Shown in pieces: positions 1 through 64,000 of a stretch of DNA of 64,000 nt (its first letter is position 1; the number at the start of each line of letters is the position of its first letter). Below the pieces are notes generated by a model. It saw only the letters and a program-made list of their open reading frames with translations. It did no database searches and was not told the DNA's origin. The position numbers and the translations under genes are program-made. The stretch lies in the NCBI GenBank assembly GCA_008360975.2, contig VLJF02000035.1:1054001-1118000 (forward strand), in the 5' to 3' direction. The DNA comes from Lichenostomus cassidix (taxonomy: Eukaryota > Chordata > Aves > Passeriformes > Meliphagidae).

Positions 1-1416
1 TTTCCCATTCCTAACGAACTTTTCCCTCTCCCAGACGTCAAGTTCGACGCTCTGAGCGGCGATTACTTCCCAACCAATTTTTCCCAATGAATTATTTCCA
101 TTCCCAATGACTTTTTCCCATTATTTTCCCACCCCAGACATCAAGTTCGACGCGCTGAGCGGCGACTACTTCCCCATCCTGTACTTCAACGACTACTGGA
201 ACCTGCAGCGCGACTATTTCCCAATGAATTGTTCCCATTCCCAATGAGTTATTCCCAATGACTGATTCCCATTTATAATGAATTACTCCCATTCCCAATG
301 ATTTATTTCCATTCCCAATGAACTTTTCCCATTCCCAATGAACTTTTCCCATTCCCAATCAATTATTCCCAATCAATTCCCCCATTCCCACTTAACCATT
401 CCCATTATTTTTCCCATTTTTCCCACCCCAGACGTCAAGTTCGACGCTCTGAGCGGCGATCACTTCCCAATGAATTATTCCCATTCCCAAGGAATTTTTC
501 CCAGTGAATTTCTCCCATTTCCAATCAATTTTCCCATTCCCAATGACTTTTTCCCATTATTTTCCCACCCCAGGCGTCAAGTTCGATGCTCTGAGCGGCG
601 ACTACTTCCCCATCCTGTACTTCAACGACTACTGGAACCTGCAGCGCGACTATTTCCCATTGAATTTTTCCCATTCCCAATGACTTATTCCCAATGACTT
701 ATTCCCATTTCTAATGACTTTTTCCCATTCCCAATGACCTATTTCCATTCCCAATGAACTTTTTCCATTCCCAATGAACTTTTTCCATTCCCAATGAACT
801 TTTCCCAATCAATTTTCCCATTCCCAATGAATTATTGCCAATGAATTATTCTCATTCCCAATGAGTTATTCCCAATGACTTATTCCCATTGCCAATGAAT
901 TATTCCCATTGCCAATGAAATATTCCCATTCCCAATGAGTTATTCCCATTCCCAATGACTTATTTCCATTTCTAATGAACTTTTTCCCATTCCCAATGAC
1001 TTATTTCCATTCCCAATGAACTTTTCCCATTCCAAATCAATTTTTCCCATTCCCAATGAACTTATCCCAATCAATTTTCTCATTCCCAATGAATTATTCC
1101 CATTATTTTTCCCATTTTTCCCATTCCTAGATGTCAAGTTCGATGCCCTCAGCGGCGATTACTTCCCAATCAATTATTCCCATTCCCAAGGAATTTTTCC
1201 CAGTGAATTTCTCCCATTCCCAGTGAATTTCTCCCATTCCCAATCAATTTTTCCCATTCCTAACGAACTTTTCCCTCTCCCAGACGTCAAGTTTGACGCT
1301 CTCAGCGGCGATCACTTCCCAATGAATTATTCCCATTCCCAAGGAATTTTTCCCAGTGAATTTCTCCCATTCCCAATCAATTTTTCCCATTCCTAACGAA
1401 CTTTTCCCTCTCCCAG
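1..1416 (+). repeat. CLPTM1 intron array with six partial exon copies
   Basis: Tandem variants of TTCCCATTCCCAATGAATTA fill the intron. Embedded, each after its own AG, are copies of the exon start (GTCAAGTTCGACGCTCTGAG) at about 34-71, 138-222, 432-468, 574-660, 1131-1169 and 1284-1321. Two copies reach about 85 bases (through the NLQRDYFP codons); the others stop at SGDYFP. The copies carry a few substitutions. Confidence 0.9.
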
Positions 1417-1661
1417 ACGTCAAGTTCGACGCGCTGAGCGGCGACTACTTCCCCATCCTGTACTTCAACGACTACTGGAACCTGCAGCGCGACTATTTCC
1501 CCATCAACGAGTCGCTGCGGCGGCTGCCCTTCCGCCTGTCCTTCTGTCCCCTGTCCCTGTGGCGCTGGCAGCTCTACGCCGCCCAGAGCTCCAGGTCACC
1601 CTGGAACTTCCTGGGGGAAGATCTCTACGAGCAGAGCGACGAGGAGCAGGACTCCGTCAAG
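1417..1661 (+). CDS. CLPTM1: CLPTM1 exon: end of the luminal domain
   Basis: Begins after CCCAG with the last two bases of a Tyr codon and runs VKFDALSGDYFPILYFN ... SDEEQDSVK, ending at AAG before GTGGGG. It is 245 nt, 81 full codons, and ends in phase 0. It is the only one of seven similar segments that keeps the whole exon; the six upstream are truncated. It carries SLWRWQLYAAQS and NFLGEDLYEQSDEEQDSVK, which are near identical to human CLPTM1. Confidence 0.95.
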
Positions 1662-4600: not shown

Positions 4601-7600
4601 CCCCATTCCCAAAAGGATTTCTCCCTTTTCCCAAGAAATTCACCCCAATTCCCAACAATTCTCCCATTCCCAGTCCCTCCAACCCCCCAGGGCTCTCTTT
4701 ACATTCCCAAAAATTCCCGAATTCCCACGGATTTTCCCCAATTTTCCAGGTGGCTCTGCTGGAGACCAACCCTTACCTGCTGGCTCTCACCATCGTCGTC
4801 TCCATCGTGCACAGCGTCTTCGAGTTCCTCGCCTTCAAGAACGGTCAGAATTCCACTTTTTCTGCCTTTTCCCACTTTTTCCTGGGAATTTTCCCACTTT
4901 TTCCACCTTTTCCGGGAATTTTCCTGGGAATTTTCCCAGTTTTTCCACCTTTTCCGGGAATTTTCCCGGGAATTTTCCCAGGAATTTTCCCAGGAATTTT
5001 CCCACCTTTTCCACCTTTTCCGGGAATTTTCCCAGGAATTTTCCCACTTTTTCCACCTTTTCCGGGAATTTTCCCGGGAATTTTCCCACCTTTTCCCACT
5101 TTTTCCCACTTTTTCTCACCCTTTTCCCACCTTTTCCCACTTTTTCCCACTTTTTCCAGCCTTTTCAAGCCTTCTCCCACCTTTTCCCACTTTTTCCCAC
5201 CTTTTCCATGGAATTTTCCCACCTTTTCCCATTTTTTCCCACCCTTTTCCCACCTTTTCCATGGAATTTTCCCACCTTTTCCCACTTTTTCCCACTTTTT
5301 CCCACTTTTTCCCACTTTTTCCCACCTTTTCCCACTTTTTCCCACCTTTTCCCACCTTTTCCCACTTTTTCCCACTTTTTCTCACCCTTTTCCCACCTTT
5401 TCAATGAAATTTTCCCACGTTTTGCACTTTTTCTCATGAATTTTCCCATGTTTTCCTGCGAATTTTCCCACCTTTTCCCACTTTTTCTGACCTTTTTCCA
5501 GCTTTTCCCACCTTTTCCCGAGAATTTTCCCATCTTCTCCCACCTTTTCCCATTTTTTCCCACTTTTTCCCATTTTTTCCCACCTTTTCAGCCTTTTCCC
5601 ACCTTTTCCCAGGAATTTTCCAGCATTTCCTGGCAATTCTCACACCTTTTCCCACTTTTTCCCATTTATTTCCTACCTTTTCCCACATTTTCCCACTTTT
5701 CCCACCTTTTGCCACATTTTTCCTACGTTTTCCAGGAATTTTCCCAGGAATTCTCCCACCTTTTCCCACTTTCTCCCATTTTTTCCCAGGAATTTTCCCA
5801 CCTTTTCCCACTTTCTCCTGAGAATTTTCTGACCTTTTCCAGACTTTTCCCAGGAATTTTCCCACCTTTTCCCATTTTTTCCTGGGAATTCTAACACCTT
5901 TTCTCACTTTTTCCCATTCTTTTCCCACTTTTTCCCATTTTTCCCCCCTTTTCTCACCTTTTTCTGGGAATTTTCCCACCTTTTCAGCCTTTTCCCAGGA
6001 ATTTTCCCACCTTTTCCCATTTTTTCCTGGGAATTTTCCCACCTTTTCCCATTTTTTCCTGGGAATTTTCTCACCTTTTCCCACCTCTTTCCAGGAATTC
6101 TGCAACCTTTTCCCACCTTTTCCCACCTTTTCCCAGGAATTTTCCAGCCTTTTCCTGGGAATTCTCCCACCTTTTCCCCCTTTTTCCCATTTTTTTCCCA
6201 CTTTTTCCCATTTTTTTCCCACCTTTTCCCACTTTTTCCCATTTTTTCCCACCTTTTCTCACCTTTTTCTGGGAATTTTCCCACCTTTTCAGCCTTTTCC
6301 CACCTTTTCCCAGGAATTTTCCCACCTTTTCCCATTCTTTTCCCATTCTTTTCCCATTCTTTTCCCATTTTTTTCCCATTTTTTCCCACCGTTTGCCAGG
6401 AATTTTCCCACCTTTTCCCACTTTTTCCAACTTTTCCCAACTTTTCCCACCTTTTCCCACCTTTTCCTGGAAGTTTTTGGGGTTTTTTGTAGGTTTTTTG
6501 GGGGTTTCTGTAGGTTTTTTGGGTTTTTTCCCAGGTTTTTTGGAGATTTTTTTGGTTTTTTCCATGTTTTTTGGGGTTTTTTGGGGTTTTTAGGGTTTTT
6601 TTTTTTTGTTTTTTGGGGGTTTTTCTGTAGGTTTTTTTCAGTTTTTTTGGGTTTTCTGTAGGTTTTGGGGTTTTTTCCCAGGTTTTTGGTTTTTCATGGG
6701 TTTTCTGTAGGTTTTTTGGGATTTTTCCATGTTTTTTTGGGATATCTCATATTTTTCTCCCCTCAGACATCCAGTTCTGGAGCAGCCTGCAGTCCCTGGA
6801 AGGACTCTCTGTGATTTTTGGGGTTTTCTGTAGGTTTTTTGGGGTTTTCTCTATGTTTTTTGGGGTTTTTTTTCAGGTCTTTTGGGTTTTTTCCAGGTGT
6901 TTTTAGGTTTTTTGTAGGATTTTTGGGTTTTCTGTAGGTTTTCCATAGGTTTTTTGGGGTTTTTTCCATTTTTTTTTGAGTTTTCTGTAGTTTTTTTGGG
7001 GTTTTCTGTAGGTTTTTCAGGGTTTTCGGTAGGTTTTTTGGGGTTTTTCCAGTTTTTTCGGTTTTCTGGAGTTTTCTGGGGTTTTGGGGATTTTCTGGTG
7101 GTTTCTGTAGGTTTTGTGGGTTTGTGTAGGTTTGGGTTTTCTGTAGGTTTTTGGTTTTCCTCATTTTTTGGGGTTTTTCCAGTTTTTGGGGTTTTCTGTA
7201 GGTTTTTGGGTTTTTTTCATGTTTTTCACAGGAATCTCTGTGGTTTTTGGGTTTTTTTTGGGTTTTTATGAGGTTTTTTCCCTATTTTTCTCCCCTCAGA
7301 CATCCAGTTCTGGAACAGCCTGCAGTCCCTGGAAGGACTCTTGGTCCTTTTTGGGGTTTTTTTGGGTTTTTTTGGTTTTTTTGGGGTTTTTTGGGTTTTT
7401 CTGTAGGTTTTTTGGGTTTTTTCCCAGGTTTTTCCATGTTTTTCACTAGAATCTCTGTGTTTTTTGCGGTTTTTTTCAGGTTTTTTGGGTTTTTTTCCCA
7501 TTTTTTTTGGAGTTTTTTCCAGTTTTTTGGGGTTTTTTTTGTTTTTTGGGGGTTTTTCCCAGGTTTTTTTGGGTTTATCCATGTTTTTCATGGCTATTTT

Positions 7601-10600
7601 TCCTGCAGACATCCAGTTCTGGAACAGCCGGCCGTCCCTGGAAGGTCTCTGTGGTTTTTGGGTTTTTTTCCAGGTTTTTTAGGGTTTTCTGTAGGTTTTT
7701 TCAGGTTTTCTGTAGGTTCTCTGTGGTTTTCTGTGGTTTTCTGTAGGTTTTTTGGGTTTTTTTCCCAGTGTTTTGGGGTTTTTTCCATTTTTTTGGGGTT
7801 TTTTTACAGTTTTTTGGGGTTTTTTTGGGGTTTTTTTGGGATTTCTCATGGTTTTTTCCACATTTTTCCATTTTTCCTGCAGACATCCAGTTCTGGAACA
7901 GCCGGCAGTCCCTGGAAGGATTCTCAGTGATTTTTTGGGGTTTTTTGTAGGTTTTCTGTAGGTTTTTTGGGGTTTTTTCCAGGTTTTTTGGGGTTTTCTG
8001 TAGGTTTTTCCATGTTTTTCACTAGAACCTTTGTGTTTTTTGGGTTTTTTTTCAGGTTTTTTTATGTTTCCTATAGGTTTTTTGGGGTTTTTTCTCTTTT
8101 TTTGGGTTTTTTTTTCAGTTTTTTCCAGTTTTTTTCAGTTTTTTTGAGTTTTTTTCCCTATTTTTCTCCCCTCAGACATCCAGTTCTGGAACAGCCGGCA
8201 GTCCCTGGAAGGTCTCTGTGGTTTTTGGGGTTTTTTGGGGTTTTTTTTCAATGTTTTTTTCAGGATTTTTCAGTTTTTTTCAGGTTTTCTGTCACTTTTT
8301 TTGGGGTTTTCTGTAGGTTTTTTGGGTTTTCTGGAGGTTTTTTTGGGTTTTTTTCCAGGTTTTTTGGGTTTTTCTGGAGGTTTTTCAGGTTTTTTGGGGT
8401 TTTCTGTAGGTTTTTTCAGGTTTTCTGTAGGTTTTTAGGGTTTTTTCCTCATTTTTTGGGGTTTTTTTTCAGTTTTTTTCAGGTTTTTTACTTTTTCCCA
8501 CATTTTCCCTGTTTTTCTCCCCTCAGACATCCAGTTCTGGAACAGCCGCCAGTCCCTGGAAGGACTCTCCGTGATTTTTGGGGTTTTTTGGGTTTTCTGT
8601 AGGTTTTCTGTAGGTTTCCTTGGTTTTTTCCCAGGTTTTTCCATGTTTTTCACTAGAATCTCTGTGGTTTTTGGGGTTTTTTTCAGGTTTTTTGGGGTTT
8701 TTTCCCAGTTTTTTGGGGTTTTTTACAGTTTTTTGGGGTTTTTTTTGGTTTTTTGGGGGTTTCCTGGGGCTTTTTGGGGGGTTTTTGGGGTTTTCTGTAG
8801 GTTTTTTCAGGTTTTCTATAGGTTCTTTGTGGTTTTCTGTGGTTTTCTGTAGGTTTTTTGGGGTTTTTTCCCAGTGTTTTGGGGTTTTTTCCAGTTTTTT
8901 GGGGTTTTTTGGGGTTTTTTTGGGATTTCTCATGGTTTTTCTCCCCTCAGACATCCAGTTCTGGAACAGCCGGCAGTCCCTGGAAGGTCTCTCGGTCCGC
9001 TCTGTGTTTTTTGGGGTTTTTTGTAGGTTTTTGGGGTTTTTTTTGGTTTTTCTGTAGGTTTTTTGGGTTTTTCTGGGGCTTTTTCCAGGTTTTTTGGGGT
9101 TTTTTCCATGGTTTTTTGGGTTTTCTGTAGGTTTTTTTTGGTTTTTTCTATGTTTTTTCAGGTTTTTTTCAGGTTTTTTCAGGTTTTCTGTAGGTTTTTT
9201 GGGGTTTTTTTGGGATTTCTCATGTTTTTTCTCCCCTCAGACATCCAGTTCTGGAACAGCCGGCAGTCCCTGGAAGGTCTCTCGGTCTGCTCTGTGTTTT
9301 TTGGGGTTTTTTTGTAGGTTTTTGGGGTTTTTTTGGGGTTTTCTGTAGGTTTTTTGGGGTTTTTCTGGGGCTTTTTCCAGGTTTTTTGGGGTTTTTTCCA
9401 TGTTTTTTTGGGTTTTCTGTAGGTTTTTTTGGGTTTTTTCTATGTTTTTTCAGGTTTTTTTCAGGTTTTTTCAGGTTTTCTGTAGGTTTTTTGGGGGTTT
9501 TTTTGGGATTTCTCATGGTTTTTTCCACATTTTTCCATTTTTCCTGCAGACATCCAGTTCTGGAACAGCCGGCAGTCCCTGGAAGGTCTCTCGGTCCGCT
9601 CTGTGTTTTTTGGGGTTTTCCAATCCCTGGTGGTTCTTCTGTACATTTTGGACAACGAGACCAACTTCGTGGTTCAGCTCAGCGTCTTCATCGGGCTGCT
9701 CATCGACCTCTGGAAGATCACCAAGGTCATGGACGTCAGGGTGAGCGCAAAAGGGGTTGAAATGGGATTTTTTGGGGTTGAAATGGGATTTTTTGGGGTT
9801 GAAATGGGATTTTTGGGGGTTGAAATGGGATTTTTGGGGGTTGAAATGGGATTTTGGGGGTTTAAATGGGATTTTCTGGGATTTTTGGGGTTTAAATGGA
9901 TTTTTTGGATTTAAATGGGATTTTTACCGATCTTTTTGGGGTTTAAATGGGATTTTTTCTGATTTTTTTGGGGTTTAAATGGGATTTTTTGGGGTTTAAA
10001 TGGGATTTTTCTGATTTTTTGGGGTTTAAATGGGAATTTTTGGGGTTTAAATGGGATTTTTCCTGATTTTTTGGGGTTTAAATGGGATTTTTTGGGGTTT
10101 AAATGGGATTTTTCTGGGATTTTTTGGATTTAAATGGGATTTTTCTGGGATTTTTTGGGGTTTAAATGGGATTTTGGGGTTTAAATGGGATTTTTCTGGG
10201 ATTTTTTCGGGTTGTAAATGAGATTTTTCCTGATTTTTTGGGGTTTAAATGGGATTTTTCTGGGATTTTTTTGGGTTTAAATGGGATTTTTTGGATTTAA
10301 ATGGGATTTTTCTGGGAGTTTTTGGGGTTTAAATGGGATTTTTTGGGGTTTAAATGGGATTTTTCCCGATTTTTTGGGGTTTAAATGGGATTTTTCTGGG
10401 ATTTTTTCGGGTTGTAAATGAGATTTTTCCTGATTTTTTGGGGTTTAAATGGGATTTTTCTGGGATTTTTTTGGGTTTAAATGGGATTTTTTGGATTTAA
10501 ATGGGATTTTTCTGGGAGTTTTTGGGGTTTAAATGGGATTTTTTGGGGTTTAAATGGGATTTTTCCTGATTTTTTGGGGTTTAAATGGGATTTTTTGGGG

Positions 10601-13600
10601 TTTAAATGGGATTTTTCCCAATTTTTTGGGGTTTAAATGGGATTTTTCTGGGATTTTTTGGGGTCTAAATGGGATTTTTTGGGGTTTAAATGGGATTTTT
10701 CCCGATTTTTTGGGGTTTAAATGGGATTTTTCTGGGATTTTTTGGGGTCTAAATGGGATTTTTTGGGGTTTAAATGGGATTTTTCGATTTTTTGGGGTTT
10801 TAAATGGGATTTTCCCGAATTTTTGGGGTTTAAATGGGATTTTTTGGGGTTTAAATGGGGTTTTTGGGGTTTCAGTTTTTCTGGGGTTTTTCGGGTTTTT
10901 GGGGTTTTAAATGGGATTTTTCGCGATTTTTGGGGTTTAAATGGGATTTTGGGGTTTAAATGGGATTTTGGGGTCTAAATGGGTTTTTGCCAATTTTTTA
11001 GGGGTTGAAATGGGTTTTTACGATTTTTTTTTTGGGTCTAAATGGGATTTTGGGTTTAAATGGGGTTTTTGGGTTTTAAATGGGTTTTCAGATTTTTGGG
11101 GTCTAAATGGGGTTTTTCTGATTTTTGGTCTAAATGGGATTTTTGGGTTTAAATGGGGGTTTTATTTGGGTTTTCTGGGATTTTTCCGGGTTGTTTTTTG
11201 GGATCTAAATGGGTTTTTTTCAGTTTTTGGGGTTTAAATGGGATTTTTCCTGATTTTTTTGGGTTTAAATGTTTTTTTTTCCTGCATTTTGGGGGTCTAA
11301 ATGGGATTTTTTGGGGTCTAAATGGGATTTTCCTGGGGTTTTTCTAGGTTTTTCTTAGGTTTTTTTGGGGTCTAAATGGGTTTTTCCCCAATTTTTTGGG
11401 GTATAAATGGTTTTTTTGGGGGTCTAAGTTGGTTTTTCCCAATTTTTTTTGGGTTCTAACTCAGTTTTTTCCCATTTTTTTGGGGTTCTAACTCAGTTTT
11501 TCCCATTTTTTTGGGGTTCTAACTCAGTTTTTCCCATTTTTTTGGGTTCTAAGTCAGTTTTTCCCATTTTTTTGGGTTCTAAGCAGATTTTTCCCAATTT
11601 TTTTGGATTCTAACTCAGTTTTTCCCATTTTTTTGGGTTCTAACTCAGTTTTTCCCATTTTTTTGAGTTCCAAGTCAGTTTTTTCCCATTTTTTTCGGTT
11701 CTAAGCAGATTTTTCCCATTTTTTTCAGGTTCTAACTCAGTTTTTCCCATTTTTTTTGGGTTCTAAGCAGATTTTTCCCATTTTTTTCAGGTTCTAACTC
11801 AGTTTTTCCCATTTTTTTTGGGTTCTAATTCAGTTTATTCCCAATTTTTTTGAGTTCTAAGTCAGTTTTTCCCATTTTTTTTTGGGTTCTAAGCAGATTT
11901 TTCCCAATTTTTTTGGGTTCTAACTCAGTTTTTCCCATTTTTTTTGGTTCTAACTCAGTTTTTCCCATTTTTTTGAGTTCTAAGTCAGTTTATTCCCAAT
12001 TTTTTTGAGTTCTAAGCAGATTTTTCCCATTTTTTTGGGTTCTAACTCAGTTTTTTCCCCTTTTTTTGGAGTTCTAACTCAGTTTTTCCCATTTTTTTTG
12101 GATTCTAACTCAGTTTTTCCCATTTTTTTGAGTTCCAAGTCAGTTTTTTCCCATTTTTTTGGGTTCTAAGCAGATTTTTCCCATTTTTTTCAGGTTCTAA
12201 CTCAGTTTTTCCCATTTTTTTGGGTTCTAACTCAGTTTTTCCCAATTTTTTTGAGTTCTAAGTCAGTTTTTCCCATTTTTTTGGGGTTCTAAGTCAGTTT
12301 TTCCCATTTTTTTGGGGTTCTAACTCAGTTTTTCCCAATTTTTTTGAGTTCCAAGTCAGTTTTTTCTTAATTTTTTTGGTTCTAACTCAGTTTTTCCCAA
12401 TTTTTTTGAGTTCTAAGCAGATTTTTCCCAATTTTTTTGGATTCTAACTCAGTTTTTCCCATTTTTTTGGGTTCTAAGTCAATTTTTCCCAATTTTTTTG
12501 AGTTCTAAGTCAGTTTTTTCCCATTTTTTTTGGATTCTAACTCAGTTTTTTCCCATTTTTTTTGGATTCTAACTCAGTTTTTCCCAATTTTTTTGGGATT
12601 CTAACTCAGTTTTTCCCATTTTTTTTGGCTTCTAACTCAGTTTTTCCCATTTTTTTTGAGTTCTAACTCAGTTTTTTCCCAATTTTTTGGGTTCCAAGTC
12701 AGTTTTTCCCATTTTTTTGGATTCTAACTCAGTTTTTCCCTTTTTTTTTGAGTTCCAAGTCAGTTTTTTCCCAATTTTTTTGGGTTCTGACTCAGTTTTT
12801 CCCAATTTTTTTGAGTTCTAACTCAGTTTTTCCCATTTTTTTTTGGATTCTAACTCAGTTTTTCCCGTTTTTTCTCCGGCCAGCTGGACAGGGAGAACAA
12901 AGTCGCAGGAATTTTCCCTCGAGTGACCTTCAAAGATAAATCCACTTATGTGGAATCTTCCACCAAAGTCTATGACGATGTGAGTCCCAAAATTCCCTGG
13001 AATTCGTCCCAAAATTCCCTGGGATTTATCCCAAAATTCCCTGGGATTTATCCCAAAATTAACTGGAATTTATCCCAAAATTCCCTGGGATTTATCCCAA
13101 AATTAACTGGGATTTATCCCAAAATTAACTGGGATTTGACCCAAAATTTCCTGGAATTCATCCCAAAATTTGATCCAAATTTCCCTGGGATTTATCCCAA
13201 AATTCCCTGGAATTTATCCCAAAATTTCTTGGAATTTATCACAAAATTTCCTGGGATTTGTCCCAAAATTTGACCCAAAATTTCCTGGAATTTGACCCAA
13301 AATTTCCTGGGATTTATCCCAAATTTTCCTGGGAATTATCCCTGAATTTCCTGGGATTTATCCCAAAATTTCCTGATATTTGACCCAAAATTTCCTGAGA
13401 TTTATCCCAAAATTCTATGGGATTTATCCCAAAATTACCTGGGATTTATCCCAATATTTGACCCAAATTTCCTGGAATTTATCCCAAAATTTCCTGATAT
13501 TTGACCCAAAATTTCCTGAGATTTATCCCAAAATTCTATGGGATTTGACCCTAAATTCCCTGGGATTTATCCCAAAATTAACTGGGATTTATCCCAAAAT

Positions 13601-16600
13601 TTCCTGATATTTGACCCGAAATTTCCTGGGATTTATCCCAAAATTTCCTGGGATTTATCCCAAAATATTCTGGAATTTGACCCAAAATTTCCTGGGATTT
13701 ATCCCAAATTTTCCTGGGAATTATCCCTGAATTTCCTGGAATTTATCCCAAAATTTCCTGATATTTGACCCAAAATTTCCTGAGATTTATCCCAAAATTC
13801 TATGGGATTTGACCCTAAATTCCCTGGGATTTATCCCAAAATTAACTGGGATTTATCCCAAAATTTCCTGATATTTGACCCGAAATTTCCTGGGATTTAT
13901 CCCAAAATTTCCTGGGATTTATCCCAAAATATTCTGGAATTTGACCCAAAATTTCCTGGGATTTATCCCAAATTTTCCTGGGAATTATCCCTGAATTTCC
14001 TGGAATTTATCCCAAAATTTCCTGATATTTGACCCAAAATTTCCTGAGATTTATCCCAAAATTTCCTGGGATTTGACCCAAAATTCCCTGGAATTCATCC
14101 CAAAATTTCCTGAGATTTATCCCAAAATTTCCTGGGATTTATCACAGAATTCCCTGGAATTCATCCCAAAATTTCCTGGGATTTATCCTAAAATTGATGA
14201 TGAGAAATGGATGAGAAATGGATGAGAAATTGATGATAAATGGATGATAAAGGGATGATAAATGGATGATAAATTGGTGATAAATTGGTGATAAATTGGT
14301 GATAAATTGATGATAAATTGATAAATTGATAAATTGATGATAAATTGGTGATAAATTGATGAGAAATTGATAAATTGATGATGAATGGATGAGAAATTGA
14401 TGATAAATTGATGATAAATCAGTGATAAATTGACCCAAAATCACCCCAAACGACCCCAAAATGACCCAAAATCCCCAATAAAAAATCCCCAAATCAACCT
14501 TAAATCGGAATTCCACAGATGGAATTGATGAGAAATTGATGAGAAATGGATGAGAAATTGATGATAAATTGATGATCAATTGATGATAAATTGATAAATT
14601 GATGATAAATGGATGATAAATTGGTGATAAATTGATGATAAATTGATAAATGGATGATAAATGGATGATAAATGGATGATAAATTGATGATAAATGGATG
14701 ATAAATTGGTGATAAATTGATGATAAATTGGTGATAAATTGATAAATTGATGATAAATTGGTGATAAATTGATGATAAATTGATGATAAATTGATGATAA
14801 ATTGGTGATAAATTGATGATAAATTGATGATAAATTGGTGATAAATTGATGATAAATTGATAAATTGATGATGAATGGATGATAAATTGATGATAAATTG
14901 GTGATAAATTGGTGATAAATTGATGATAAATTGATCATAAATTGATCATAAATTGATCATAAATTGACCCAAAATCTCCCCAAACGACCCCAAATCGCCC
15001 CAAAATCCCCCAGAAAAAATCCCCAACCCACCTCCAGCCGTTCCCAGCCCTTTTCCCACGGATTTTTCCCGTTTTTCCCGTTTTTTCCAGATGGCATTTC
15101 GGTACCTGTCGTGGCTGCTGTTCCCCCTGCTGGGCTGCTATGCTGTGTACAGCCTGCTCTACCTGGAGCACAAAGGCTGGTACTCCTGGGTGCTCAGCAT
15201 GCTCTACGGATTCCTGCTGACCTTCGGTGAGAAATCCCAAAAAAAACCCCAAAAAAATCTCAAAATTCCCGAAAAAATCCCAAAATCGGCAAAAAAATCC
15301 CCAAAAAAATGACCCCAAATGCCCCAACCTGCCCATTCCCTGCTCTACCTGGAGCACAAAGTTGGTACTCCTGGGTGCTCAGCATGCTCTATGGATTCCT
15401 GCTGACTTTTGGTGAGAAACCCCAAAAAAAACCCCAAAAAAATCCCCCAAAAAATCCCAAAATTCCCAAAAAAATCCGCAAAAAAATCGTCAGAAAAATC
15501 GTCCAAAAAATCCCCGAGAAAATCTGAAAAAATCGCCAAAAAATTCCCCAAAAACTCCCCCAAACCAACCATTCCCTGATGGATTCCTGCTGACTTTCAG
15601 TGAGAAATCCCAAAAAAAACCCCAAAAAAATCCCAAAATCGGCAAAAAAATCGTCAAAAAAATCGGCAAAAAAATTCCCGAGAAAATCCCTGAGAAAATC
15701 CCAAAAAACTCCCCCAAACCAACCATTCCCTGATGGCTTCCTGCTGACCTTCGGTGAGAAACCCCAAAAAAAACCCCAAAAAAATCCCAAAATTCCCCAA
15801 AAAATCCGCAAAAAAATCGTCAAAAAAATCCCCGAGAAAATCTGAAAAAATCGCCAAAAAATTCCCCAAAAAATCTCCCAAACCAACCATTCCCTGATGG
15901 ATTCCTGCTGACCTTTGGTGAGAAACCCCAAAAAAAAGCCCAAAAAAATCCCAAAATTCCCCAAAAAATCCGCAAAAAAGTCCTCCAAAAATCCCCAAAA
16001 AAATCGTCAAAAAAATTCCCGAGAAAATTCCCCAAAAAATCTCCAAACCAACCATTCCCTGATGGATTCCTGCTGACCTTCGGTGAGAAATCCCAAAAAA
16101 AACCCCAAAAAAATCCCAAATCTGTCCAAAATCCCCCAAAAAAATCACCCTAGAATACCCCAAAAAATCCTCCAAAATCCCAAAAAAAATCCTCCAAAAA
16201 ATGCCCCAAAAAATCTCCCAAACCAACCATTCCCTGATGGCTTCCTGCTGACTTTCGGTGAGAAATCCCAAAAAAAAACCCAAATTTGTCTGAAATTCCT
16301 AAAAAAATCCACAAAAAAATCCTCAAAAAATCCCCAAAAAAATCGTCAAAAAAATTCCCGAGATAATCTCCAAAAAATCTTCACATTAACAATTCCCTGA
16401 TGGCTTCCTGCTGACCTTCGGTGAGAAATCCCCAAAAAAATCCCAAAAAATATCCCAAATCTCTCCAAAATCCCTGAACAAATTCCTGAAGAAATGCACC
16501 AAAAAATCTCTGAAAAAATCCCCCAAAAAATCCCAAAATCCTCAAAAAAAAATCCCAAAATCCTGACAGAATTCCTGAAAAAAATCTTCCAAAAAATCCC

Positions 16601-19600
16601 CAAAAAATGCCCCAAAATCCTCCAAAAAATCCTCAAAAAAATCCTCAAAAAAATCCTCCAAAAAAATCCTCCAAAAAATTCTCCAAAAAAATCCTCAAAA
16701 AAATCCTCAAAAAAAATCCTCAAAAAAATCCTCCAAAAAATCCTCCAAAAAATCCCAAAAAAATCTCCCAAACCTGACGGCTTCCTGCTGACCTTCGGTG
16801 AGAAATCCTAAAAAAAATTCCAAAATCCTAAAAAAAAATCCACAAAACATCCCAAAATCCTTCAAAGAATCCTCCAAACCATTCCCTAATCCCCTTTTAT
16901 TCCCATTTTTTCCCATTTTTTTCAGGATGACTCCATTTTATGGCACCCCAAACCTTTCCTAATCCCATTTTTTCTCATTTTTTCCCATTTTATTCCCATT
17001 TTCTCCCCAGGATTCATGACGATGACTCCCCAACTCTTCATCAACTACAAACTCCAGTCGGTGGCTCACCATGACCATTCCCTAATCCCATTTTTTCTCA
17101 TTTTTTCTCATTTTTTCCCATTTTTCCCCAGGATTCATGACGATGACCATTGCCTAATCCTGTTTTTTCTCTTTTTTTTCTCTTTTTTTCCCATCTTTTT
17201 CCAGGATAACTCTATTTCAGGGCACCCCAAACTATTCCCTAATCCCATTTTTTCCCATTTTTTCAAGGACAGCTCTGATTTATGGCACTCCAAACCCATT
17301 CCTAATCCCATTTTTCCCCTGTTTTTCCCCGTTTTTTCCCCGTTTTTCCCCAGTTTTTTCCCATTTTTTTCCCCTTTTTTCTCATTTTTTTCCCGTTTTT
17401 TCCCCAGGATTCATCACCATGACCCCTCAACTCTTCATCAACTACAAACTGCAGTCGGTGGCTCACCATAACCATTCCCTAATCCCATTTTATTCCCATT
17501 TTTTCTCCTTTTTTTCTCATTCTTTCCCATTTTTTTCCTGTTTTTCTCCATTTTTTCCCGTTTTTTCCCGCTTTTTCTCATTTTATTCCCATTTTCTCCC
17601 CAGGATTCATCACCATGATGCCCCAACTCTTCATCAACTACAAACACCAGTCGGTGGCTCACCACGACCATTCCCTAATCCCTTTTTTTCCCGTTCTTTC
17701 CCATTTTTTTCCTGTTTTTTTCCTGTTTTTTCTCATTTTATTCTCATTTTTTCCCATTTTTTCTCACTTTTTCTCATTTTATTCCCATTTTCTCCCCAGG
17801 ATTCATCACGATGACCCCCCAACTCTTCATCAACTACAAACACCAGTCGGTGGCTCACCACGACCATTCCCTAATCCCATTTTTTCCCGTTCTTTCCCAT
17901 TTTTTTCCCGTTTTTTCCCCGTTTTTCCCCATTTTTTTCCCGTTTCTTCCCATTTTTTCTCATTTTATTCCCGTTTTCTCCCCAGGATTCATCACGATGA
18001 CTCCCCAACTCTTCATCAACTACAAACTCCAGTCGGTGGCTCACCATGACCTTTCCCTAATCCCATTTTATTCCCATTTTTTCCCGGTTTTTTCTCATTT
18101 TTTCTCATTTTTTTCTCATTTTTTCTTATTTTTTTCCTGTTTCTTCCCCGTTTCTTCCCATTTTTTCTCATTTTTTCCCATTTTTCTCGTTTTTCTCCCC
18201 AGGATTCATCACCATGACCCCCCAGCTGTTCATCAACTACAAACTCCAGTCCGTAGCTCACCTGCCCTAGTTTTTTTCCCGTTTTTTTCCCATTTTTTCC
18301 TGTTTTTTCTCATTTTATTCTCATTTTTTCCCATTTTTTCTCACTTTTTCCCATTTTATTCCCATTTTCTCCCCAGGATTCATCACAATGACCCCCCAGA
18401 TCTTCATCAACTACAAACTCCAGTCTGTGGCTCACCATGACCATTCCCTAATCCCATTTTTTCCCTGTTTTTTCCCGTTTTTTCCCCGTTTTTCCCCATT
18501 TTTTTCCCGTTTCTTCCCATTTTTTCTCATTTTATTCCCGTTTTCTCCCCAGGATTCATCACGATGACTCCCCAACTCTTCATCAACTACAAACTCCAGT
18601 CGGTGGCTCACCATGACCATTCCCTAATCTCATTTTATTCCCATTTTTTTCCCTGTTTTTTCTCATTTTTTCTCTTTTTTTTCTCATTTTTTCTTATTTT
18701 TTTCCCGTTTTTTCCCCGTTTCTTCCCATTTTTTCTCATTTTTTCCCATTTTTCTCGTTTTTCTCCCCAGGATTCATCACGATGACCCCCCAGCTGTTCA
18801 TCAACTACAAGCTCCAGTCGGTGCCTCACCATGACCATTCCCTAATCCCTTTTTTTCCCGTTTTTTCCCATTTTTTTCCTGTTTTTTTCCCGGTTTTTCC
18901 TGTTTTTTCCCCGTTTTTCCCCATTTTTTCCCGTTTTTTCTCATTTTATTCCCATTTTCTCCCCAGGATTCATCACCATGACTCCCCAACTCTTCATCAA
19001 CTACAAGCTGCAGTTGGTGGCTCACCACGACCATTCCCTAATCCCATTTTTTCCCTGTTTTTTCCCCGTTTTTCCCCATTTTTTTCCCGTTTTTTCTCAT
19101 TTTTTCCCATTTTTCTCGTTTTTCTCCCCAGGATTCATCACGATGACCCCCCAGCTCTTCATCAACTACAAGCTGCAGTCGGTGGCTCACCTGCCCTAGT
19201 TTTTTTCCCGTTTTTTCCCCATTTTATTCTCATTTTTTCCCATTTTTTTCCTGTTTTTTCTCATTTTATTCCCATTTTCTCCCCAGGATTCATCACGATG
19301 ACCCCCCAACTCTTCATCAACTACAAACTCCAGTCTGTGGCTCACCTGCCGTGGCGCATGCTCACCTACAAAGCTCTCAACACCTTCATCGACGACCTGT
19401 TCGCCTTCGTCATCAAGATGCCCATGATGTACAGGATAGGCTGCCTGCGAGATGGTACGGAGAATTCCTGGGGTTTTTTGGGAATTTTGGGGAATTTTTG
19501 GGGTTTTTCCAGGGTTTTTGGGGGATTTTCCCGTATTTGGGGGGATTTTAATGGGTTTTTTAGGATTTTAATGGGTTTTTTGGGGGATTTTCCCAGTTTT

Positions 19601-23815: not shown

Positions 23816-23849
23816 ACCCCAAAAAAATCCCAAATTCCTGACTCGGCTG

Positions 23850-34400: not shown

Positions 34401-35600
34401 CCCCTCACCTTTCCCCTCACCTGTCCCCTCACCCTGTCCCCTCAATGTCCCCTCTGTCCCCACAGAAGGATCCCCACCTGTCCCCTCAATGTCCCCTCTG
34501 TCCCCACAGAAGGATCCCCACCTGTCCCCTCAATGTCCCCTCTGTCCCCACAGAAGGATCCTCACCTGTCCCCTCACCTGTCCCCCATGTCCCCTCTGTC
34601 CCCACAGAAGGATCCCCACCTGTCCCCTCAATGTCCCTCTGTCCCCACAGAAGGATCCTCACCTGTCCCCTCACCTGTCCCCCATGTCCCCTCTGTCCCC
34701 CACAGAAGGATCCCCACCTGTCCCCTCAATGTCCCCTCACCTGTTCCCTCACCCTGTCTATTCACTTGTCCCCTCAATGTCCCCTCACCCTGTCCCTGTC
34801 CCCTCACTGTCCCCTCTGTCCCCACAGAAGGATCCCCACCAGGCTCTCAAGGACCTGGCCAAGGTTTGTCTCCTCACCGACTGCACCCTCCTGGTGGCCT
34901 GGAGGTAACGCCTGTCCCTTTGTCCTCTTTGTCCCCTGCCACCCTCGGTGTCCCCAATGTCCCCAAATGTCCCCAATGTCCCCTCCATGTCCCCCAATGT
35001 CCCCAATGTCCCCGCAGCCCCGAGGAGGCCGGCAGGTACCTGGAGACCTTCAAATCCTACGAGCAGAAACCAGCAGATCTCCTCAAGGAGCGCGTGGAGC
35101 ACGACTTCCTGTCCCGGGTCAGTGTCCCCAAGTGTCCCCAGCTGTCCCCTCCCCCCCAGCGCTGTCCCCTGACCCCCCCTTGTCACCCCCCAGGTGACAG
35201 ACTGCCTGACCAGCGTCAAATCTGTCAACAAAACCGACTCCCTGAGCCTGCTCAGCACCTTCGGGGTGAGTGGACACTTGGGGACATTGTGCCACCCTCG
35301 GGGACTGTCCCCAACCCCACTGTGACCCCCCCGAGCCTGTCACCCTGATGTCACCTCCCTGCAGTCGCTGGCGGCCGTGGTGGGAGCGTCCCGGGAGGAT
35401 CTGTCCCTCTGTCCCGGCGTGGGACCCCAAAAGGTGAGTGACAGTGACACTGGGGACGTTGGGGACAGAGGGGACGTTGGGGACAGAGGGGACATTGGGG
35501 ACAGAGGGGACAAGTGTCATCCTCCTGTCCCTTTGTCCCCAACCAGGCCAAGCGACTCTTCGATGTGCTGCACGAGCCTTTCCTCAAGAGCCCGCCGTGA
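31328..35600 (+). CDS. ERCC1: ERCC1, nine coding exons, complete
   Basis: ERCC1 is the non-catalytic partner of the XPF nuclease, which cuts 5' of lesions in nucleotide-excision and crosslink repair in the nucleus. Coding exons: 31328-31447 (donor uncertain), 31534-31908, 32777-32880, 33515-33608, 34828-34904, 35018-35117, 35194-35265, 35365-35433 and 35547-35600, all phase-compatible, about 354 residues (human 297). The XPA-binding and central domain is intact ([49 protein letters not shown]), as is the C-terminal double helix-hairpin-helix for XPF ([38 protein letters not shown]). The extra length is an Arg/Asp-rich insert in exon 2. POLR1G converges from the other strand, as in human. Confidence 0.96.
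31534..31908 (+). CDS. ERCC1: ERCC1 exon 2 with Arg/Asp-rich insert
   Basis: The acceptor CGACAG opens VAVSLFRAS (human VAKPLFRST); the exon ends [15 protein letters not shown] at CAG before GTGGGT. It is 375 nt, 125 codons, against roughly 70 in human. The surplus is mainly [20 protein letters not shown] and [11 protein letters not shown], made of GGGATCAGAACC-type repeats. A consensus-like GTGAGC after EFVV could mark an alternative donor, but no convincing partner acceptor was seen. Confidence 0.85.
31909..32776. repeat. ERCC1 intron array CTCATATCGCGACATGGGG
   Basis: About fourteen 55-65 base units with CTCATATCGCGACATGGGG and CCCCTATATCGCGACGCTCA. Each unit holds one or two TCGCGA palindromes, so CpG is kept at high density. 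Units near the exons are most diverged. Confidence 0.9.
32777..32880 (+). CDS. ERCC1: ERCC1 exon 3
   Basis: [34 protein letters not shown] plus two bases; acceptor CCCCAG, donor GTGAGT. It contains the XPA-binding core, nearly invariant against human. Confidence 0.95.
32881..33514 (+). repeat. ERCC1 intron array CCCCAGGTGTCCCCAGGTGT
   Basis: Tandem CAGGTGTCCC units start directly at the donor; every unit has CAG|GT, so both a decoy donor and a decoy acceptor. Two short copies of the exon 4 start (CCTCAGGTATCACCA) are embedded. Confidence 0.9.
33515..33608 (+). CDS. ERCC1: ERCC1 exon 4
   Basis: Completes an Arg codon, then [31 protein letters not shown], with donor GTGAGG. Human has an extra SL before RYH; the bird lacks it. 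Short copies of its start (near 33305 and 33373) and of its end (33722-33760, 33902-33942) lie in the flanking introns. Confidence 0.95.
33609..34827 (+). repeat. ERCC1 intron: donor copies, then acceptor copies
   Basis: A GTCACTGTCATTGTCACTGT array includes two copies of the end of exon 4 (CTGCTGCAGGTGGTCGTGGT, about 33722-33760 and 33902-33942). A CCCCTCACCTGTCCCCTCAA array follows, with eight copies of the start of exon 5 (CCACAGAAGGATCCCCACC) at 34208, 34350, 34466, 34510, 34554, 34608, 34651 and 34706. Confidence 0.9.
34828..34904 (+). CDS. ERCC1: ERCC1 exon 5
   Basis: [25 protein letters not shown] plus AG, with donor GTAACG. It is 77 nt. Eight acceptor-preceded copies of its first bases lie upstream. 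Confidence 0.95.
35018..35117 (+). CDS. ERCC1: ERCC1 exon 6
   Basis: Completes Ser, then [33 protein letters not shown]; acceptor CCCGCAG, donor GTCAGT. It is 100 nt. Confidence 0.95.
35194..35265 (+). CDS. ERCC1: ERCC1 exon 7
   Basis: [24 protein letters not shown], 72 nt, phase 0/0, donor GTGAGT; first helix-hairpin-helix of the XPF-binding domain. Confidence 0.95.
35365..35433 (+). CDS. ERCC1: ERCC1 exon 8
   Basis: [23 protein letters not shown], 69 nt, phase 0/0, donor GTGAGT; second hairpin with the CPGxGPQK turn. Confidence 0.95.
35547..35600 (+). CDS. ERCC1: ERCC1 exon 9 and stop
   Basis: [17 protein letters not shown] then TGA (35598-35600). The terminal Phe of EPFLK, important for XPF binding in human, is kept. 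Confidence 0.95.
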   Translation, partial: AKRLFDVLHEPFLKSPP

Positions 35601-42530: not shown

Positions 42531-42599
42531 CCACGGGCGATCCCACTCAAAACTGGGGGTCCCACCGCCCCCTCCCCCGTTTTTGGGGGGCCCCCGGGC

Positions 42600-42720
42600 T
42601 GGCCCTGCCCCGGGGGGTGGGCGGCGGCTGGATTAATTAGCGCTAATTACTGTTATGATGCTGCTGCTGACGAGCTCCCGGCGGGTCTCAACACGCCTCG
42701 CTCGCGGCGTTCCCAAGGCA
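42600..42720 (+). promoter_or_regulatory. Unique element with 16-bp homeodomain-type palindrome
   Basis: A non-repeat island in the PPP1R13L intron holds the perfect palindrome TAATTAGCGCTAATTA (42634-42649), two inverted TAATTA cores, followed by CTGTTATGATGCTGCTGCTG. It lies about 200 bases before the first coding exon. TAATTA is the classic homeodomain core; the regulatory role is inference. Confidence 0.45.
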
Positions 42721-42857
42721 CGGCGGCGGGGGCGGGGGGCTCCGGGGGGCTCCGGGGGGGCTCCGGGGGGGTCCGCGATGTCCCCAAGGTGTCCCCGAGA
42801 TGTCCCCACCCCCGGCCGTGCCCACCCCCCCCCAAAATGTCCCCCCAGGAGGCGACA

Positions 42858-42912
42858 ATGGCGAGCGAGAGGCTGCGCAGCGCTCAGGACCTGCTGGACC
42901 TCACCTTCCAGT
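42858..42912 (+). CDS. PPP1R13L: PPP1R13L first coding exon
   Basis: The acceptor CCCCCCAG ends at 42848; ATG at 42858 begins [18 protein letters not shown]. The donor is CAGT|GTGAGC, chosen because it gives FQSLAM with the next exon as in human. Confidence 0.9.
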
Positions 42913-43605
42913 GTGAGCTGGGGAGAGGGGGGTCGCGCTTTTTTTGGGGGGCTGCCCGACCCCCCCCCCGAGGGTCCCAGCCGTGCGACCCCCGCCCCAA
43001 CTCGGTGTCGCCCCCCTCCCTCCCCGGCACAGCGCTGGCCATGCAGCACATGGACCTGAAGCAGGTGGAGCTGGACACGGCCGTGGCCAAGGTGGACGAA
43101 CTGTCGCGGCAGCTCGAGTCGCTGTGGACCGACGGGCCGGGACCCCCCAAAGTGCGACCCCCGACCCACCCCCGGGGGGGGTTTTGAGGAGGGGGCGACC
43201 CTCCCTTCACGGGCAGCCCCCTCCTCGGTTTATCCCCCCCTTTCCAGGAGCAGAGCAGCCGCTCGGGCAGGAGGAGCTTCACTCCGGACAGCCTGGAGCT
43301 GGGCGGGGGGCTCGGAGACCCCCTGGGCCGGCCCGGCTCGCCGAGACCCCTCCTCAATTTTTTGGGGGGCGACGAGCGCGCCCCCTCCCCCCGGCCCAAG
43401 GTGCTGGCGGTGCCCAGCTCGGGGGGCGCGGCGGGCAGAGCCCCCTCCCCACGGCCCGGCCCCAGGGGCTATGAGCTGCTCGGGGGGTCGCCGCGGGCGG
43501 GGGAGGGGGCGTTCTTCGGGGAGAGACCCCCAGCGCCGCCCCCCTACGAGGTGCAGGGGCTTTACCCCAGCCTGAGCGGGCCGCCCGCCGCCTGCCGGGC
43601 ACAGG
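42858..43605 (+). CDS. PPP1R13L: PPP1R13L (iASPP), N-terminal exons, truncated by gap
   Basis: iASPP inhibits p53-family and RelA transcription and binds PP1; it works in nucleus and cytoplasm and at desmosomes. Coding exons 42858-42912, 43033-43151 and 43248-43605 join to 177 residues: [50 protein letters not shown] match human iASPP ([20 protein letters not shown]), followed by Pro/Ser-rich sequence with GSPRP, APSPRP and APSPRP motifs typical of the family. The ankyrin repeats and SH3 domain that bind p53 are missing; the last exon ends in phase 1 and the assembly gap begins 373 bases later. The position beside POLR1G matches human. Confidence 0.93.
43033..43151 (+). CDS. PPP1R13L: PPP1R13L second coding exon
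   Basis: CGGCACAG then [39 protein letters not shown]; 119 nt, donor GTGCGA. Heptad-like pattern of a short coiled coil. Confidence 0.92.
43248..43605 (+). CDS. PPP1R13L: PPP1R13L third coding exon
   Basis: TTTCCAG then [20 protein letters not shown] ... APSPRPKVL ... [14 protein letters not shown] ... [17 protein letters not shown]; 358 nt, phase 1 end, donor GTGAGC. PPPY is a possible WW-binding motif. Confidence 0.9.
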
Positions 43606-43978
43606 GTGAGCCACAGAGGGGACACAGGGACAGAGGGGACAGAGAGGGGGGAGAGGGGGGACAGTGGGGGTAGAGAAGGGGGACACAGGGGACAGAGAGG
43701 AGAGAGGGGATAGAGAGGGACAGAGAGAGGAGAGAGAGGGGACAGTGAGGGACACGAAAGGGGAGACATCTTAGGGACAGAGAGGGGACAGTGAGGGACA
43801 GCGAGGGACAGCGGGGGACAGAGAAAGGGAGAGAGAAGGGACAGAGAAGGGACGGGGTGGGGGACAGCCAGGGGACAGCGGGGGGATACTGAGGGGCTAG
43901 CTAGGGGACAGAGAGGGGACACTGAGGGGAGAGAGGGGGGAGAGCAGGGGGACAGCAGGGACAGCGAGGGGACAGAGG
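43606..43978. repeat. PPP1R13L intron array GGGGACAGAGAGGGGACAGT
   Basis: Purine-rich GGGACAGAGAGGGGACA units run into the gap. Confidence 0.88.
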
Positions 43979-44478
43979 NNNNNNNNNNNNNNNNNNNNNN
44001 NNNNNNNNNNNNNNNNNNNNNNNNNNNNNNNNNNNNNNNNNNNNNNNNNNNNNNNNNNNNNNNNNNNNNNNNNNNNNNNNNNNNNNNNNNNNNNNNNNNN
44101 NNNNNNNNNNNNNNNNNNNNNNNNNNNNNNNNNNNNNNNNNNNNNNNNNNNNNNNNNNNNNNNNNNNNNNNNNNNNNNNNNNNNNNNNNNNNNNNNNNNN
44201 NNNNNNNNNNNNNNNNNNNNNNNNNNNNNNNNNNNNNNNNNNNNNNNNNNNNNNNNNNNNNNNNNNNNNNNNNNNNNNNNNNNNNNNNNNNNNNNNNNNN
44301 NNNNNNNNNNNNNNNNNNNNNNNNNNNNNNNNNNNNNNNNNNNNNNNNNNNNNNNNNNNNNNNNNNNNNNNNNNNNNNNNNNNNNNNNNNNNNNNNNNNN
44401 NNNNNNNNNNNNNNNNNNNNNNNNNNNNNNNNNNNNNNNNNNNNNNNNNNNNNNNNNNNNNNNNNNNNNNNNNNNNNN
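43979..44478. other. Assembly gap of exactly 500 N
   Basis: 500 consecutive N, a typical placeholder for a gap of unknown size. On the left PPP1R13L lacks its C-terminal exons; on the right LTBP4 lacks its last exons. Real missing DNA is probably much more than 500 bases, or the join is wrong. Confidence 0.95.
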
Positions 44479-44479
44479 A

Positions 44480-44920
44480 GGTCCTGGCAGGTCGATAAAT
44501 CACTCACCCACGCACTGCAGGTGCTCACAGACACACACACAGGTCCTGGCAGGTTCACACAGACACACACAGGTCCTGGCAGGTTCACCCAGGTCCTGGC
44601 AGGTCGATAAATCACTCACCCACGCACTGCAGGTGCTCACAGACACACACACAGGTCCTGGCAGGTTCACACAGGTACAGACACACACAGACAGGTCCTG
44701 GCAGGTTCACACAGGTACAGACACACACACACAGGTCCTGGCAGGTGCCACAGACCACACAGACACACACAGGTCCTGGCAGGTGGATAAATCACTCACC
44801 CACGCACTGGAGGTGCTCACAGACACACACAGCCAGGTCCTGGCAGGTGCACACACACACACACAGGTCCTGGCAGGTTCACACACACACACACAGGTCC
44901 TGGCAGCTCCATAAAGCTCA
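44480..44920 (-). repeat. LTBP4 intron array ACACACACACAGGTCCTGGC with exon-end copies
   Basis: CAGGTCCTGGCAGGTTCACA units with (AC)n stretches, and three copies of the end of the 44922 exon plus donor (CACTCACCCACGCACTGCAG on the + strand). Confidence 0.88.
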
Positions 44921-44921
44921 C

Positions 44922-62304
<17,383 letters not shown>

Positions 62305-62945
62305 CTGGGGGGAACAGGTGGGCACAGGTGAGATTAGGTGAGGCACAGGTGAGCACAGGTGGAGTTTTGGGGTGGCACAGGTGAGCTCAGGTGAGCACAG
62401 ATGAGGGACAGGTGAGCACAGGTGAGGCACAGGTGGAGTTTTGGGGTGGCACAGGTGAGCTCAGGTGAGGCACAGGTGAGCTCAGGTGAGGCACAGGTGA
62501 GCACAGGTAAGCTCAGGTGAGCTCAGGTGAGGCACAGGTGGAGTTACGGGGTGGCAAAGGTGAGGTCAGGTGAGGTCAGGTGAGCTCAGGTGAGGCACAG
62601 GTCAGCTCAGGTGAGGCACAGGTGAAGTTTTGGGGTGGCGCAGGTGAGGTCAGGTGAGCTCAGGTGAGCTCAGGTAAGGCACAGGTCAGCTCAGGTGAGG
62701 CACAGGTGAAGTTTTGGGGTGGCACAGGTGAGCTCAGGTGAGCTCAGGTGAGCTCAGGTGAGGCACAGATGAGGCAGAGGAGAGCTCAGGTGAGGCACAG
62801 ATGAGGGACAGGTGAGCTCAGGTGAGGCACAGGTGAGCTCAGGTGAGGGACAAGTGAGCACAGGTGAGCTCAGGTGAGCACAGGTGAGCTCAGGTGAGCT
62901 CAGGTGAGCACAGGTGAGCTCAGGTGAGCTCACCTGAGGGACAGG
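62305..62945. repeat. LTBP4 intron array CAGGTGAGCTCAGGTGAGGC
   Basis: A continuation of the CAGGTG family on the other side of the exon, with GGAGTTTTGGGGTGGCACAG inserts. The same family flanks one exon on both sides. Confidence 0.88.
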
Positions 62946-64000
62946 TGAACCCCCCCAACACCTTGAACCCCCCGAGATACCCCAGGACCTTTTTAAACTC
63001 CCTAAAAACCCCTTGAAAGACCCTAAAATGCCCAAAAAACCCCCAAAAACCCAAAAAACCCCTTTAAAAACCAAAAAAACCCTTTAAAAACCCCAAAACC
63101 CCAAAAACCCTTTAAAAACCCCAAAAACCCCCAAAAAACCCCAAAAACCCCAGACTCACCTATGCAGTGTGTCCCCTGGGGGCTGAGCCAGAAGCCCCCC
63201 CGGCAGAGGCAGGTGTAGCCCCCCGAGACCCCCTTGGAACCCCCAAACCGCCCCAAAAACCCCTTGAAACACCCAAACCCCCAAAACCCCTTGAAACCCC
63301 CAAAGATCCCCAAAAACCCCTTGAAGACCCCAAAAACCCCTTGAAACACCCAAAAGACCCCTTTAAACACCCCCAAAACCCCAAAGATCCCTAAAGACCC
63401 CTTGAAGCCCCCAAGACCCCCAAGACCCCTTCAGATACTCCAAAACGCCCCAAAGCCCCTTCAAAACCCCCAAAAAACTCCTTTAAACCCCCCAAAAAAA
63501 ACCCCAAAAACCCCAAAAACCCCTTTAAACCCCCAAAACGCCCTTGAAACACCCCAAAACCCCCAAAGACCCCTTTAAAACCCCCAAAAAACCCCCAAAC
63601 ACCCCAAAAACACCTTTAAACATCCCAAAACCCAAAAAATCCCTTTAAACACCCCAAAACACCCCAAAACCCCCAAACCCCAAAATCCCCCCAAATCTCC
63701 CCAAACTCACCGACGCAGTGTGTCCCCTGGGGGCTGAGCCAGAAGCCCCCCCGGCAGAGGCAGGTGTAGCCCCCCGAGACCCCCTTGGAACCCCCCAAAA
63801 ACCCCCAAAGACCCTTGAAACCCCCAAAATCCCAAAGACCCCTTGAAAGACCCCAAACCCCTTGAAACACCCAAAAGACCCCTTTAGACACCCAAAACCC
63901 CAGACCCCTTGAAACCCCCAAGACCCCCAAGACCCCTTCAGATACCCCAAAATGCCCCAAAAACCCCTTCAAAACCCTAAAAGCCCTTCAAAACTCCCCA
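62945..64000 (-). repeat. LTBP4 intron array CCCCAAAAACCCCTTGAAAC with two exon-end copies
   Basis: CCCCTTGAAACCCCCAAAGA units with two donor-side copies of an EGF exon end (GGYTCLCRGGFWLSPQGTHC plus donor GTGAGT) at about 63711-63780 and 63161-63229. Both lack the first half of the domain, so the real exon should lie beyond the window. Confidence 0.85.

Follow-up and report, generated by a model that had tools for sequence, protein, structure and literature searches.

Tandem exon-edge copies with splice sites in introns of avian CLPTM1, ERCC1 and LTBP4, and their probable exchange with the working exons

We analyzed a window of 64,000 nucleotides from the passerine bird Lichenostomus cassidix (GenBank assembly GCA_008360975.2, contig VLJF02000035.1, positions 1,054,001 to 1,118,000 of the forward strand), which contains parts of CLPTM1 and LTBP4 and the ERCC1 gene. 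Introns of these three genes carry tandem copies of exon edges together with their splice sites, an arrangement noticed in a sequence-only reading of the window and confirmed here. The loci are a further case of the already known avian sequence or exon stuttering, and the copies and the working exon probably exchange sequence in both directions. The sample was one assembly of one individual, exon ends were placed by AG or GT dinucleotides and homology, and the breakpoints and the lengths compared were our own choice. The introns consist of imperfect tandem arrays, for which Tandem Repeats Finder (TRF) gave 696 rows across the window, and unique 12-mers begin at 37% of its positions.

We screened the window by blastn-short with 26 mapped exons and a cut-off of 31.9 bits, the 99th percentile of 780 dinucleotide-shuffled exons. 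The screen gave 151 rows above the cut-off, self hits included, and none of the 151 was opposite to the gene strand. We kept 64 truncated edge copies (42 acceptor-side and 22 donor-side), which adjoin 15 of the 26 exons. Left out were self hits, five mid-exon matches of the CLPTM1 exon C_a at 29.0-30.6 kb, two matches of exon C_c at 20373 and 24981, three 21-nt array-unit matches to C_c bases 50-70, one match of the LTBP4 exon L_45046 at 43254, cross-matches between EGF paralogues, and a whole-exon copy. Donor copies listed twice through two near-identical LTBP4 exons were each given to the nearer exon. As the sequence-only reading had claimed, each of the 64 kept copies is on the expected side of its own exon, upstream if acceptor-side and downstream if donor-side. 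All 64 lie in the adjacent intron, adjacency being also a condition for keeping a row, and the AG or GT at the edge is retained in 63 of them when small shifts are allowed. The donor copies of exon C_e and the acceptor copies of C_f occupy separate parts of the one intron that they share.

Junction 16-mers with up to three mismatches gave 93 matches (66 acceptor and 27 donor), and their reverse-complement control gave no acceptor and no donor match. The wrong-side control gave 12 matches, namely eight copy starts of neighboring EGF exons and four copies of the duplicated LTBP4 exon. Matches were found at 10 of 26 upstream edges, counting the ERCC1 exon R_2 whose start is undefined, and at 8 of 24 downstream edges. 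The earlier estimates of about 70-80 truncated copies and about 100 decoy splice sites are about right compared with 64 copies by blastn and 93 by junction 16-mers. The statement that mid-exon copies are absent holds in general, with array-like matches at C_c bases 50-70 as the exception. LTBP4 is on the minus strand. The share of ERCC1 is small, and its copies are short.

The variation among the copies has the structure of coding sequence. For seven exons, the acceptor copies show a mean difference of 4.9% from the exon, and the differences, with each copy counted, fall on codon positions 1, 2, and 3 in the numbers 14, 13, and 59. When unique copy-versus-exon changes were counted once per family, 47 of 76 were synonymous against an expected 23.6 +/- 3.6 under a null matched for CpG status as well as for reference and new base. 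This count omits two poorly matching copies, and a single change, located in a split last codon, was left unclassed. Third positions hold 46 of 72 changes in frame, compared with 12 and 14 in the shifted frames. For families of four or more copies (L_51317, the near-identical twin of L_53419, was left out), variants shared by several copies were synonymous in 22 of 29 cases, where the null gave 9.5 (pooled, CpG-matched) or 11.9 (within edge) with p 2.5e-4, the floor of the test. Singleton variants in the same families were synonymous in 12 of 27 (null 8.6 or 10.3, p 0.09 and 0.27), and the two synonymous shares differ by Fisher's test (p 0.028). The excess among shared variants is also seen outside CpG (14 of 19 against a null of 4.6-5.9), and leaving out one family at a time gave p values from 0.0047 to 1.3e-5. 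Families of fewer than four copies had 11 of 16 synonymous changes (null 4.5-5.3). No variant was fixed between an exon and all its copies (0 of 56, families of four or more).

Several families show direct signs of exchange, being mosaics by the four-gamete criterion. The fractions of site pairs with all four combinations were 4/10 for C_f, 3/6 for C_a, 2/3 for C_e, and 1/3 for L_56741, and C_c and C_g, with one pair each, had none. The real C_c edge, too, is a mosaic, with the copy type of 7883 in the flank and that of 8951 in the exon. It agrees exactly with the copy at 7883 over 56 flank and 37 exon bases and then diverges, and it agrees with the copy at 8951 over 70 of 70 exon bases but only 13 of 40 flank bases.

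The geometry of the copies supports amplification through events that cross the exon-intron junction. The intron flank was copied together with the exon edge, and a TRF period of 133 bp spans the C_a acceptor. The sequence-only reading had proposed amplification that crosses the junction or starts at it. The same strand, the correct side, and the included flank agree with the first, and nothing requires a start at the junction. A tandem duplication reaching from intron into exon spares the complete exon, so it leaves a correct-side edge copy with no special role for the junction. Duplication with both ends within the exon would insert into the coding sequence, and one spanning the whole exon would make an additional exon, as may have occurred with the LTBP4 EGF exon. 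We infer that this geometry explains the many edges, one whole exon, and no middles, apart from the three C_c 21-mers and distal low-complexity rows. A junction-specific amplifying signal was dropped as a candidate, the edge bias being explained by duplication geometry and selection on the exon.

The breakpoints inside the exons also share sequence with the arrays. We picked 22 breakpoint classes by eye, took the longest exon stretch at each breakpoint that is also found in the copy-masked array, and compared it with random exon positions in 20,000 draws. The shared bases summed to 125 against a null of 86.8 +/- 7.0 (p 5e-5, the floor of the draws). Taking the smallest value per edge for 16 edges, the sum was 81 against 62.2 (p 0.0036). 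Most of the excess comes from three long matches (16, 14, and 11 nt), those of C_c TGTTTTTTGGGGTTTT, L_62305 CCCACCTGGGCACA, and L_55824 GTCCCCACGGT. Since long exon-array matches occur only at these three, the idea that the array unit is an exon derivative was rejected as a general account. An unmasked test (21 classes, 139 against 85.4) was replaced by the masked version because some copies had stayed unmasked.

We consider it likely that these loci are avian stuttering arrays in which the copies and the working exon exchange sequence in both directions. A family would go back to a tandem duplication that ran from the intron array into the exon, helped in some cases by microhomology or by a stretch of array-like sequence within the exon. 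The long units would then grow and shrink, whether by unequal exchange or through slippage. Since 13-91 exon bases beside the junction are common to copies and exon, the exchange may include the working exon. The variants that spread among the copies would be mostly synonymous because any exchange that gives the exon a non-synonymous change is lost, and edges rather than middles would be affected because such an exon-touching duplication spares the protein. More tentatively, the working exon edge and its copies may form one concertedly evolving family, with the copies as a recombining reservoir from which the 5' or 3' end of the exon, splice site included, is overwritten again and again, and whose conversion load imposes a coding-type purifying selection on the intron.

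We compared the observed values with a toy population simulation of 80 chromosomes and 9 copies with 120 replicates per setting, which came after a single-chromosome simulation and a 10-replicate pilot. The observed fractions are 0.76 synonymous for shared variants and 0.44 for singletons, with no fixed difference among 56. Two-way exchange at rising rates gave 0.58, 0.83, and 0.92 for shared variants, 0.38-0.59 for singletons, and 1-2% fixed.

Several points weigh against exchange with the working exon. The simulated rates are arbitrary, and the single-chromosome exchange model reached only 0.43-0.51 for the shared synonymous fraction, so that the fit depends on a sieve at the level of a population. 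The exon C_g is contrary to the trend, with one synonymous and three non-synonymous shared variants. The counts are small (29 shared variants) and the variants are not fully independent. Over all families, the changes seen in one copy also have a synonymous excess (23 of 42 against a null of 12.4), so the neutral look of the singletons rests on the larger families. In families of one to three copies, a singleton is indistinguishable from an old difference, but this excess leaves room for direct constraint on the copies. Decay of copy similarity with distance was absent in three of the four families tested. The breakpoint excess is marginal when the three long matches are removed (84 against 73.2, p 0.044). 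Finally, fast one-way seeding between homologues reached 0.63, which is compatible with the shared fraction taken alone.

Such one-way serial seeding, possibly between homologues, is the strongest competitor, although we regard it as unlikely. Here the copies would record past synonymous states of the exon with no feedback on it, which accounts for the shared synonymous variants and the absence of fixed differences. Simulated seeding from exon to copies only gave 0.47-0.63 for the shared synonymous fraction with 1-2% fixed, the fast setting between homologues giving the upper value with 5 of 464 fixed. At that rate, however, singletons far outnumber shared variants (362 against 97), whereas 27 and 29 were observed. 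The mosaic of the C_c edge is a further sign that sequence has passed into the exon or its flank, although seeding combined with copy-to-copy exchange could mimic it.

One capture per family followed by neutral array growth, with the copies as inert relics, is the simplest account of the repeated identical breakpoints and of the locality, and the variation in C_g and L_55824 appears neutral. It is nevertheless improbable, because shared variants are unlike singletons and the exon is not an outgroup to its copies. Simulated single capture gave a shared synonymous fraction of 0.41 compared with the observed 22 of 29, and 118 fixed differences among 806 compared with 0 of 56.

Direct selection on the copies, in which the decoy splice sites would be used, for example in alternative or regulatory splicing, is very unlikely. 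Its appeal lies in the nearly complete retention of AG or GT, in pyrimidine tracts of the decoy acceptors that are about equal in quality to the real ones, and in the synonymous excess including the single-copy changes over all families. The copies, however, lack the remainder of the exon, the singletons in families of four or more are near neutral, and all changes in L_48792 (three) and L_55824 (two) are non-synonymous. As a candidate means of exon choice, a nearby 5' splice site (exon definition) was rejected, since a crude 5' splice-site score failed to set the decoys apart from background. Repeated misassembly of ordinary introns is hardly credible; the 500-N gap does adjoin one array, but the copy-exon differences are codon-structured, the gene model of a jay holds the same LTBP4 exon twice, and such arrays in chicken PHF8 are reported as checked with raw nanopore reads (Hron et al., 2026; PMC12954441).

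The genes are identified as follows. The 3' part of CLPTM1 lies on the plus strand at 1-22.6 kb (Pfam CLPTM1 domain, E 2e-97; top protein among the matches listed from Corvus moneduloides, 93% identity). ERCC1 lies on the plus strand at 31.8-35.6 kb (Rad10 domain, E 5e-49; PDB ERCC1 match, E 2e-115). The partial LTBP4 lies on the minus strand at 44.9-64 kb with EGF_CA domains, and its top protein among the matches listed is latent-transforming growth factor beta-binding protein 4. The closest proteins are from birds, the mapped exons together form open frames, and the exons are GC-rich, with a GC content at third codon positions (GC3) of 0.84 in CLPTM1. The Nipponia nippon protein model P0066 shows CLPTM1 fused to the ERCC1 Rad10 domain, which fits an avian CLPTM1-ERCC1 adjacency.

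In CLPTM1, the intron array at 1-1416 carries six acceptor-side copies (at 35, 138, 432, 575, 1133, and 1284) of the complete exon C_a (1417-1661), with the unit TTCCCAATGAATT. No edge copies were found by blastn or junction 16-mers for C_b (4750-4843) and C_d (12884-12979). Eight acceptor-side copies of C_c (9550-9740) lie at 6767-9310, where the array unit is similar to bases 50-70 of this exon. These bases (9599-9619, plus strand; CTCTGTGTTTTTTGGGGTTTT) are array-like and have A/T-ending codons despite the gene GC3 of 84%; of the eight codons from TCT to CAA, five end in A/T. This could mean that the array has converted the exon, but it is a single post-hoc case. Exon C_e (15091-15226) has eight donor-side copies at 15339-16797, four of them above the blastn cut-off. 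The complete exon C_f (19287-19454) has eleven acceptor-side copies of 60-64 nt at 17011-19195, and a shorter one at 17132. The last coding exon C_g (22409-22596), which contains the stop, has nine acceptor-side copies of 27-31 nt at 20731-22255. ERCC1 exons R_2 to R_9 lie at 31849-35600. R_4 has two short acceptor-side copies (at 33300 and 33368, within 33300-33383) and two donor-side copies of 17-27 nt at 33727-33934, and R_5 has eight short acceptor-side copies with 13 exon nt at 34208-34719.

The LTBP4 EGF exons and their copies are all on the minus strand. The exon at 44922-45047 has three donor-side copies at 44508-44818, and the assembly gap of 500 N (43979-44478) is at the edge of this donor-copy array. 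Below the gap, no match to further LTBP4 exons of the bird models P0123 and P0130 was found at E 0.01, so the sequences flanking the gap may not be true neighbors. Five weak matches at 46 kb, considered as donor copies, resemble plain array and were not counted. Two acceptor-side copies at 49034-49271 belong to the exon at 48666-48791, whose 3' end is uncertain, and two donor-side copies at 49780-49998 to the exon at 50118-50243. The exon at 54841-54963 has one acceptor-side copy at 55032-55100, and the exon at 55488-55613 has one donor-side copy at 55348-55390. Five acceptor-side copies of 47 nt accompany the exon at 55695-55823 (together 55695-56262), and 13-14 short acceptor-side copies of about 17 nt, under the blastn cut-off, accompany the exon at 56621-56740 (together 56621-58982). 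For the exon at 59976-60101, neither blastn nor junction 16-mers found edge copies. The exon at 62179-62304 has one donor-side copy at 61816-61859 and a weak second at 61360. Two donor-edge copies at 63164-63220 and 63715-63771 (GYTCLCRGGFWLSPQGTHC) belong to an LTBP4 exon that is probably beyond the window end.

The one complete exon copy is also in LTBP4. The EGF exons at 51185-51316 and 53287-53418 are 98.5% identical, in phase, and of lengths that are multiples of three. They lie in duplicated blocks at 50560-51330 and 52664-53431 that are 86% alike, each exon with five donor-side copies; those of the second are at 52617-53239, the outermost just outside its block. By eye, the gene model P0123 of the jay Cyanocitta cristata has the same exon twice in tandem, the two copies being identical to each other and differing from the first copy of the window at three residues, and the Myiozetetes gene model P0124 has it once. 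The identical jay copies and the single Myiozetetes exon suggest independent duplications or within-species co-evolution of the copies. P0123, again a gene model, also holds a repeated exon end (WGAQCPGQPCPTPGT), consistent with stuttering at a different edge.

If exon edges exchange with intronic copies, the introns would be a mutation source for exons, and intron instability would gain a testable link to the rapid protein change or loss of genes that has been reported on avian dot chromosomes. With so many near-identical acceptors, the loci would also serve as a natural assay of how splice sites are chosen. Whole-exon copies would be a route toward new protein domains.

These arrays can be compared with several known systems. 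In minisatellites and other tandem arrays, unequal exchange or conversion produces variant units, mosaic copies, and length change, and all three features are shared with the present arrays. Here, by contrast, the units take in the edge of a coding exon, which links the array to a sequence under selection. Conversion of CYP21A2 by its pseudogene CYP21A1P illustrates that non-functional copies are able to convert a working gene; here, in contrast, short exon edges are present in many tandem copies within introns of the same gene. Short breakpoint homology, as expected from microhomology-mediated duplication, for example by polymerase-theta end joining, exceeds chance here overall (p 5e-5) but only marginally without the 11-16 nt matches (p 0.044).

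The closest system is the sequence or exon stuttering on avian dot chromosomes named by Hron et al. (2026; PMC12954441), contrary to the view of the sequence-only reading that no named system exists. According to the main text of that paper, chicken exon stuttering involves 236 introns in 115 genes, with 190 introns on dot chromosomes. The length of these introns varies strongly between individuals, more than 90% of the copied exon sources lie no more than 1 base from the exon border, and the mechanism is left open. Gene-coding regions are described there as intact, and none of the repeat blocks as extending into an exon. CLPTM1, ERCC1, and LTBP4 are unnamed in its main text. Judged by our term searches of that text, codon-structured sharing of variants, breakpoints with array-like sequence, and duplication of a complete exon are new relative to it, although other work may have been missed. 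The present loci are like the published ones in that imperfect tandem arrays fill the introns and contain local edge fragments with a donor or an acceptor. They are unlike the published ones as described there in that an LTBP4 exon is duplicated whole and the pattern of variation among the copies suggests that they exchange sequence with the exon.

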